Assembly (NCBI GenBank): GCA_030615105.1
Contig: JAUWZV010000010.1
Span: forward strand, 1 to 33,618
DNA length: 33,618 nt
Reading direction: 5' to 3'
DNA from: Desulfobacteraceae bacterium
Lineage (GTDB): Bacteria; Desulfobacterota; DSM-4660; Desulfatiglandales; B25-G16
A program made the translations under genes and the position numbers. The notes below the pieces were generated by a model. It was not told the origin of the DNA. It was given only the letters and a program-made list of their open reading frames with translations, and made no database searches. Position 1 is the stretch's first letter; each line of letters opens with the position of its first letter. This document shows positions 2,893 through 10,046 of this stretch, in pieces.

Positions 2893-4317
2893 TCAGAAAT
2901 TGCTCGCAGAAGCACGGAGTTGATCCCAGGCATCTTGTACGTGCTCTCGAGTCGTGTTGGTCTGAGCAATACAGAGGCGTAATGTAAATTTCCCTTTCAG
3001 CCTTGTGTGTGTGATAAACATCTTTCCTGATCTGTTGAGTTCATCCATCAGAGCTTTATTGATTTGTTCAAGTTCCTCTTCGCTAAGGGTGTGGTTGGAA
3101 GGATGATACCTGAAACAGACCAGGTTTATTGTCACAGGTGCCATCAATTCGAATTGAGGGTCTTCCCGGACCCATGACTCAAATTCCTTTGCAAGCTCGA
3201 TGTGGGCTCGAATCTTTTCTTGAAGCCCCTTGACTCCGAAAGACCGTATCACGAACCACAGCTTGAGGGCCCTAAAACGGCGACCCAGGGGTATTCCCCA
3301 GTCGCGAAAATTCTTGACCTGGAGATCAGCATCGGTTTTCAAATACTCGGGCAGGATCTCGAAGGTCGAGGTCAGGGCCTTGGGGTCCTTGCAAAAATAG
3401 GCTGAACAGTCGAAATTCGTGAACATCCACTTGTGTGGATTGAAAACAAAGGAATCAGCAAACTCGATGCCGTCAAGTATGTAACGCATCTCTGGAAGTA
3501 TTGCTGCGGTGCCTGCCATGGCCGCATCCACATGGAGCCAAAGTCCATGATGATCACAGATCTCACCGATCGGCCTCAGTGGATCCATGGCGGTTGAAGA
3601 GGTCGTACCGACCGTTGCCACTACACAGCAGGGCAGGTACCCATCCTTGCTGTCAGCATTAATGGCCCGTTCCAGTTCCTCTGGAATCATAGCAAAGTCT
3701 GCTCCTGATGGTATAAGGCGGAGTTGGTCTTTGCCAAAACCAGAGATCTTTACACCTTTCTCAACAGAAGAATGTGCTTCTTCTGAGGTATAGACGATGA
3801 GGCTTTGACTGCTCCCATCTCGGAAACCGTGCTCATTAATGGCAAAGCTCGTTGCACGTTCCCTCGCGCACAGAAGGGCACAGAGCGTGGAGGTGGAAGC
3901 AGTGTCCTGGATCACGCCGGTAAAGTGCTCCGGAAGCCCCAGCATGTGATGAAGCCAATCCGTGACAACCTCCTCCAGCTCAGTGGCCGCTGGAGAAGTT
4001 TGCCATACCATGCATTGAGCACCCAGGGCAGCTGTTAGGAACTCGGCTAAGATAGATGGCTCGCTGGTATTTGCAGGAAAATAGGCGAAGAAGGAGGGAT
4101 GCTGCCAATGGGTCATCCCTGGTAAAAGGATACCCTTGAAATCATTAAAAATGGCCTCCATCTCCTCCGGTTCCTCAGGCGGACTTTTGGGAAGACTGTC
4201 TGCGATCTCACCGGGTTCAACCTGGGCAAGAACGGGATATTCATCGATATGCTCCATGTAGTCTGCTATCCAGTCTATCATGGCATGCCCATACTTCCGA
4301 AATGATTTCCTGTTCAT
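2893..4317 (-). CDS. PLP-dependent group II decarboxylase (aromatic-L-amino-acid decarboxylase family)
   Basis: The 474-residue protein matches the aromatic-amino-acid/tyrosine decarboxylase family over its full length. It has an N-terminal three-helix lid (RKYGHAMIDWIADYMEHID), the MTHWQHPSFFAYFPAN substrate-binding segment (~68-83), TSEEAHSSVEKG with the PLP-stacking His181, HVDAAMAG with Asp264 that binds the pyridine nitrogen, and NPHKW with the Schiff-base Lys296. These cytosolic enzymes remove CO2 from aromatic amino acids to give amines; some bacterial members are aldehyde synthases. Exact substrate is not readable. A good AAAGGAG precedes the ATG at 4317. The gene is monocistronic and divergent from the glycosyltransferase. 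Confidence 0.93.
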   Translation of the reverse strand: MNRKSFRKYGHAMIDWIADYMEHIDEYPVLAQVEPGEIADSLPKSPPEEPEEMEAIFNDFKGILLPGMTHWQHPSFFAYFPANTSEPSILAEFLTAALGAQCMVWQTSPAATELEEVVTDWLHHMLGLPEHFTGVIQDTASTSTLCALLCARERATSFAINEHGFRDGSSQSLIVYTSEEAHSSVEKGVKISGFGKDQLRLIPSGADFAMIPEELERAINADSKDGYLPCCVVATVGTTSSTAMDPLRPIGEICDHHGLWLHVDAAMAGTAAILPEMRYILDGIEFADSFVFNPHKWMFTNFDCSAYFCKDPKALTSTFEILPEYLKTDADLQVKNFRDWGIPLGRRFRALKLWFVIRSFGVKGLQEKIRAHIELAKEFESWVREDPQFELMAPVTINLVCFRYHPSNHTLSEEELEQINKALMDELNRSGKMFITHTRLKGKFTLRLCIAQTNTTREHVQDAWDQLRASASNF

Positions 4318-6071: not shown

Positions 6072-6091
6072 CCCTGTAGCAAGCTACAGGG
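6072..6091. repeat. REP-like palindrome, copy 2
   Basis: CCCTGTAGC-AA-GCTACAGGG is a perfect 9-bp inverted repeat with the same AGC-AA-GCT centre as copy 1. It ends 4 bases before the first possible ATG (6095) of the membrane protein gene, so if transcribed it would lie at the very start of that gene's translation initiation region. Confidence 0.7.
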
Positions 6092-9338: not shown

Positions 9339-10046
9339 GTGAAAAAGTTATTATATGGGATACCTTTTATGGTCTTTTGGATCATCTTCAACCTCACCAC
9401 AGGTTGGTCTCAACAGGCCATTGGACCAAGAATAGTTATAGAGGAAAAAAATTTTGATGCTAAACAGATCAAAGAAGGCAAAATTATAGAGCATCCCTTT
9501 AGAGTCCTTAATAAGGGAGACCGTCCACTTGAAATAAAAAGGGTCAGAACTGGTTGAGGCTGTGCATCGGTCCATTTTGACAGGACCATCCCCCCTGGAG
9601 GAGAGGGAAAGATTACCTTAAGGGTAAATACCAAAGGTTACCAGGGTGTGATCAGAAAAGGAGCTAGAGTTTACACCAATGACCCGCGCAATAATGTTCA
9701 AGTATTAAGCATTAAGGCCTTTGTCAAGGTAGCCATCTATATGTCTCCCAGATATGTCTACCTTAGGGGATTTGCTGGACAAAAAATCACCAGAACCGTT
9801 AGAATCAGCGCAAAAGAAGACAAACCCCTGAAACTTGAACAGAGCCATTTTAACCTCGGCAAAGAAGTGACTTACAGGATAGAAGAGGTTGAACTAGGGA
9901 GGGTATTTAGGATTCATTTCACCAGCATCCCTGGTCCTGTGGAAACCTACCGGGGTGTATTGAAACTGAAAACTAATTATCCTGAAAAGCCTGAGATTAT
10001 CATTCGGATAAGGGGTAAATTTCAGAAGGGTGGTCGAGTTAAATAA
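9339..10046 (+). CDS. DUF1573 protein, probable selenoprotein (UGA at codon 73)
   Basis: A GTG start (9339) with AGAGAGGGA 8 bases upstream opens a frame that meets UGA at 9555-9557 and continues in the same frame to TAA at 10046, 235 codons in all. Residues 1-24 form a signal peptide (LLYGIPFMVFWIIF core), so the product is exported. Before the UGA the text is the DUF1573 signature (EGKIIEHPFRVLNKGDRPLEI). After it come GCASVHFD, IPPGGEGKITLRVNTKGYQG and VYTNDP. DUF1573 proteins normally read Cys-Gly-Cys here; the UGA replaces the first Cys, giving Sec73-Gly-Cys. Residues ~120-232 form a second beta-sandwich. DUF1573 has no settled function; a Sec-Cys pair suggests thiol redox or metal chemistry. 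A nonsense mutation is the alternative. It ends directly against the convergent asd gene. Confidence 0.75.
9558..9596 (+). promoter_or_regulatory. Candidate bacterial SECIS element
   Basis: Directly after the UGA, 11 bases of spacer precede a 5-bp stem GGTCC (9569-9573) / GGACC (9583-9587) with a 9-base loop (9574-9582). The 11-nt gap equals that in the E. coli fdhF SECIS. The spacer even ends in CATC followed by GG, as it does there. A basal AGG/CCT pairing (9557-9559 with 9594-9596) may extend the helix. The apical loop lacks the typical leading G, so SelB fit is uncertain. Confidence 0.55.

Follow-up and report, generated by a model that had tools for sequence, protein, structure and literature searches.

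Selenocysteine in proteins with a DUF1573 domain has been described before, a point that the original prediction for the locus analyzed here had raised as a question. OS_HP2 (pfam07610) appears with the motif UxC in the 2008 paper on Global Ocean Sampling (PMC2398784), and reviews from 2022 and 2026 list a DUF1573 domain protein with the motif UGC (PMC9312934, PMC13188914); the 2022 review cites Zhang and Gladyshev 2007, on the Olavius algarvensis symbiont, for the DUF1573 selenoprotein (PMC9312934). The family is already described as OS_HP2, first listed in 2007-2008, and the case reported below is real and not new in kind.

The window (the whole stretch of 33,618 nucleotides analyzed here) carries a gene whose product scores above the cut-off of NCBIfam NF041425, “OS_HP2 family (seleno)protein” (Table 1), a model that also matches 22 of 22 relatives tested and all 23 members of alignment A1 at E <= 1e-5. 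This match and the published selenoprotein tables place the gene, as a new member, in a selenoprotein family that is already known, and from the sequence evidence we put the probability that it encodes an OS_HP2 selenoprotein (DUF1573, UGC motif) at about 0.95, a figure that applies to this identity and not to the redox role. Domain, place of the UGA and U-G-C motif are those of OS_HP2 as modelled in NF041425; the window protein has a second Ig-like domain beyond the 98 residues of that model, and otherwise nothing essential differs. The domain and the position of the motif are also shared with the DUF1573 proteins (PF07610) that have C-x-C, in whose genes a Cys codon stands in place of the UGA; the few Cys genes found here do not share the sequence pattern that is consistent after the UGA.

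Table 1 Features of the predicted selenoprotein gene, in coordinates of the window
Feature	Position	Strand	Details and evidence
Probable DUF1573 selenoprotein gene (OS_HP2 family)	9339..10046	+	starts at GTG and ends at TAA; 235 codons, the UGA counted as Sec
Probable signal peptide of Sec type, hydrophobic N-terminus (VKKLLYGIPFMVFWIIFNLTTGWSQ)	9339..9413	+	sequence; segment recurs in homologues
DUF1573 Ig-like domain spanning the UGA	9435..9725	+	PF07610 65.8 bits; NF041425 116.1 bits, cut-off 100
UGA at the first position of the U-G-C motif, probably selenocysteine 73	9555..9557	+	TGA in 77/85 homologues, TGT/TGC in 8
Cys75, proposed partner of Sec73	9561..9563	+	invariant in alignment A1
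SECIS-like hairpin	9567..9589	+	GGUCC (9569-9573) pairs with GGACC (9583-9587), loop AUUUUGACA; family pairing, shuffles, window fold
Second hairpin, rich in G+C, which may belong to the same element	9589..9608	+	weaker family-wide folding excess; window fold
Second Ig-like domain	9735..10043	+	strands 133-229 of the model; conserved TNYPEKPEI motif

Reading frame and domain organization

From the GTG at 9339-9341 to the TAA at 10044-10046 the TGA is the sole interruption of the frame, and its translation as U places this residue in the context TGUGCAS. The PF07610 profile runs straight over the TGA (E 5.8e-18, a single internal stop) and reaches 72 bits on the joined protein, which bears out the prediction of one frame in register broken only by this codon. 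The prediction further held that 162 codons after the UGA are intact and family-like. They are intact, but only about the first 57 belong to DUF1573 as defined by Pfam, and those that follow form the second Ig-like domain. A standard gene caller was expected to split the gene in two; the gene is indeed cut, but the plain list of open reading frames gives the second part alone, a 132-residue piece at 9648-10046 that starts from an internal GTG. Other long TGA-bridged frames in the window lie mostly opposite known genes, and none was accepted as a gene. Elsewhere in the window, two adjacent genes for 2-hydroxyglutaryl-CoA dehydratase D-components (PF06050; 15190-17609) suggest an anaerobic acyl-CoA dehydratase or a benzoyl-CoA-reductase-like enzyme.

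The predicted structure (mean pLDDT 89.8) consists of two Ig-like sandwiches, with a hydrophobic N-terminal helix (residues 7-22) modelled at low confidence. U-G-C lies in a turn between strands 64-71 and 76-80 of the first domain, a part of the model that is confident. Solved structures gave no match by sequence, and Foldseek points to a Porphyromonas protein of unknown function and to Ig-like domains from proteins of cilia, so no mechanism follows from the fold. It is shared with domains of the ASPM/SPD-2/Hydin type (PF22544; cilia central-pair proteins; Porphyromonas gingivalis 2qsv), whereas sequence identity to these is 8-14% and the TM-score about 0.4 or less.

Homologues and exchange between selenocysteine and cysteine

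In searches made without selection for TGA we extracted and aligned 85 distinct homologous proteins, mostly from Desulfobacterota. Matches were found in 48 of 61 genomes (60 relatives and the host itself), the good ones nearly all with exactly one internal TGA, and a search of named genomes found 25 loci, all with titles of Desulfobacteraceae, Desulfobacterales, Desulfobacteria or Deltaproteobacteria, among them strain NaphS2. The column of residue 73 holds 77 TGA, five TGT and three TGC codons and no other; so exact a placement of the TGA, with Cys codons in all remaining sequences, excludes chance and agrees with the prediction that the UGA occupies the first Cys of a Cys-Gly-Cys motif and would alternate with Cys codons in an alignment. 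On the tree, Sec and Cys switch seven times by parsimony, at least three of these switches being forced by well-supported branches, and thus each residue has taken the place of the other during evolution, which is the behavior expected at a Sec/Cys position. Several genomes have at least two UGA-bearing paralogues, and some relatives are longer, at 330-450 residues, with extra sequence after both domains (L057, L062, L064, L048, L130 and others).

Among close pairs, dN/dS stays under 1 on either side of the UGA, an indication that the part after it is translated. Decay of the homologues after the UGA, named in the prediction as evidence that would speak against it, was not seen; purifying selection extends to the true stop.

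Hairpin and silent-site constraint downstream of the UGA

A conserved RNA hairpin is present just downstream of the UGA across the family. Where two sequences carry the same residue, the excess of identical codons above expectation is 0.177 for codons 74-92, compared with 0.037 (sd 0.055) elsewhere; the best 12-codon windows for synonymous conservation in the whole gene lie over codons 72-90, and identity at codon 78 is 0.96 where 0.29 is expected. Positions equivalent to 9567-9573 and 9583-9589 form standard pairs in 82% of cells (66 sequences), compared with 31-47% when one side is slid, and the true register stands above all 2000 column shuffles. When 11-codon windows were folded against synonymous shuffles, a comparison that tells RNA constraint apart from protein constraint, the mean z was -1.60 (sem 0.16) at three and -1.16 at eleven codons past the UGA, and about zero at most other places tested.

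The published model of bacterial SECIS elements has a loop of 3-9 nt, a stem of 4-16 bp, a spacing of 16-37 nt and an MFE of -7.5 or lower, together with a G in the first two loop positions, and some bacterial elements fall outside it (PMC13188914). The window hairpin agrees with this model in loop (9 bases), stem, spacing (16 nt after the UGA) and energy (about -8 kcal/mol); what it lacks is an early G in the loop, AUUUUGACA. A 42-base fold of the window is no better than that of dinucleotide shuffles (z 0.38), and a strict SECIS scan passes 60 of the 77 TGA homologues but also three of the eight Cys genes; for these three reasons the case for a SECIS element is made from the family comparison. 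When RNAalifold was run on the gapless alignment the main hairpin was not recovered, which slight shifts of register among the homologues probably explain, and the hairpin was instead counted pair by pair. An Rfam search at the locus gave no family; the variability of bacterial SECIS elements exceeds what a single curated model can cover.

Selenocysteine machinery in the host and its relatives

The prediction had proposed a search of the host genome for selenocysteine machinery, which was recovered in part: in an assembly of 171 contigs that is 81% complete, selB is present (370 bits), and selA, tRNA-Sec (selC) and, over the cut-off, selD were not found. Candidates for a host tRNA-Sec were assigned by ARAGORN to Trp, Ser, Tyr, Thr and Arg tRNAs. 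One weak selD match (L018), a stop-free frame of 335 residues, remained below the cut-off and was judged to be ThiL-like; low-scoring matches of this kind occur beside a true SelD in relatives. The full set is present in most relatives: among the 61 genomes, 52 have selA, 46 have tRNA-Sec and 48 have a SelD that scores over the cut-off, and most SelD genes of the relatives carry a TGA themselves. The host gene for FlpD, considered as a second selenoprotein, has no TGA.

A genome of the same genus (G001) has selA and tRNA-Sec on one contig. A host contig (C101) aligns beside this selA up to position 6077 of the G001 locus (L097), after which about 150 bases of contig remain; the G001 selA starts at about 6520, and the host contig ends about 290 bases short of it. 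Thus selA is missing from the host assembly because the contig ends before its position. The 10 kb around the G001 tRNA-Sec have no counterpart in the host assembly except dispersed repeats, which fits a missing piece, and we infer that tRNA-Sec and selD are likewise absent through incompleteness of the assembly.

The dispersed repeats measure about 100-165 bases, are up to 95% identical and occur at dozens of places in the host genome, some of them at contig ends, and are therefore a likely cause of the assembly breaks. Related copies lie at L097:4074-4320 and at L096:1472-1636 and 3780-3913; none is listed in the contig of the window. The gene adjoining selB (L010:404-1462, host contig C102) encodes a membrane protein that has two cysteine clusters resembling those of ferredoxins and may act in electron transfer.

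Alternative readings of the UGA and of the motif

The missing selA, tRNA-Sec and selD would also be expected if the TGA were a real stop that had recently broken a Cys-containing DUF1573 gene by point mutation. This reading is refuted by the conservation of the TGA, which is shared by 77 distinct homologues over several families of the order, and the purifying selection on the downstream part and the constrained silent sites after the TGA count against it as well; we hold it to be extremely improbable. An error of sequencing or assembly at 9555-9557 might be suspected in so fragmented a source assembly, but the identical codon stands in the identical column in independent assemblies from many projects, by which this explanation is refuted and its probability becomes negligible. 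It could also be supposed that the UGA is read as another residue, such as Trp, or by general read-through, given that the identity of the residue is deduced here from the sequence. Against this, the alternative in the homologues is always Cys and never Trp, many of the genes themselves end in TGA as their stop codon, and selB is present, so that insertion of a residue other than selenocysteine seems very unlikely. Of the sequence tests that the prediction had named, all but the search for selA, tRNA-Sec and selD favor a selenocysteine-containing DUF1573 protein, which is supported by the UGA/Cys column, by the hairpin and silent-site constraint, by the lack of decay after the UGA and by selB.

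Given selenocysteine at this place, its role may be read in two ways. The U-G-C motif might be a metal ligand or trafficking site of the envelope instead of an electron-exchanging pair, a reading that competes with the redox role only. In other families soft metals are bound by motifs of the CxC type, and the Ig-like scaffold has no known redox fold. On the other side, the replacement of sulphur by selenium at a Cys is usually the sign of a redox residue, and the gene adjoins rex in many relatives, although neither point is decisive. We regard the metal site as possible but the less probable of the two and somewhat favor a redox function over structural metal binding.

Proposed function and the rex neighbourhood

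The motif, the exchange between Sec and Cys and the likely export signal together suggest a thiol/selenol redox protein of the envelope. SelB bound to the hairpin just after the UGA would deliver Sec-tRNA to 9555-9557, and the full protein of 235 residues would then be made, exported into the envelope by way of its N-terminal signal peptide and folded there as two Ig-like domains. Sec73 and Cys75 may form a reversible selenenylsulfide on the turn of the first domain, exchanging electrons with a thiol partner.

Among 24 loci from genome contigs that have the Sec codon (L050-L073), the selenoprotein gene starts 2-114 bases behind rex in 13, three of the others having less than 1.4 kb of upstream sequence; Rex is an NADH-sensing repressor. 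An RNase H gene (rnhA) follows the selenoprotein gene in 12 loci. The conserved order (L051-L065, e.g. L051:2304-2954) is rex, DUF1573 selenoprotein, rnhA and a zinc-ribbon-like protein without a Pfam match, the last of these found in 11 loci. This order is seen neither in the window nor in its nearest relatives; in the window the genes upstream encode a protein with a metallo-beta-lactamase fold and a kinase of the PfkB type, and the link to Rex is therefore a lead and not a result. In the papers searched there is no mention of an association between rex and a DUF1573 selenoprotein. One might speculate that in Desulfobacterota OS_HP2 forms the envelope arm of a redox circuit under the control of Rex. 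The protein would be an exported relay of Sec and Cys built on an Ig-like scaffold and co-expressed with Rex, and would sense or carry periplasmic electrons. This proposal is drawn solely from the order of genes at 13 of 24 loci, the window not among them, and we consider it rather unlikely as it stands.

The gene extends by one well-supported member a selenoprotein family whose Sec form is the rule in Desulfobacterota, across several paralogous lineages, even as plain gene calling still cuts the gene, and the rex neighbourhood offers a lead, open to test, to what DUF1573 selenoproteins do.
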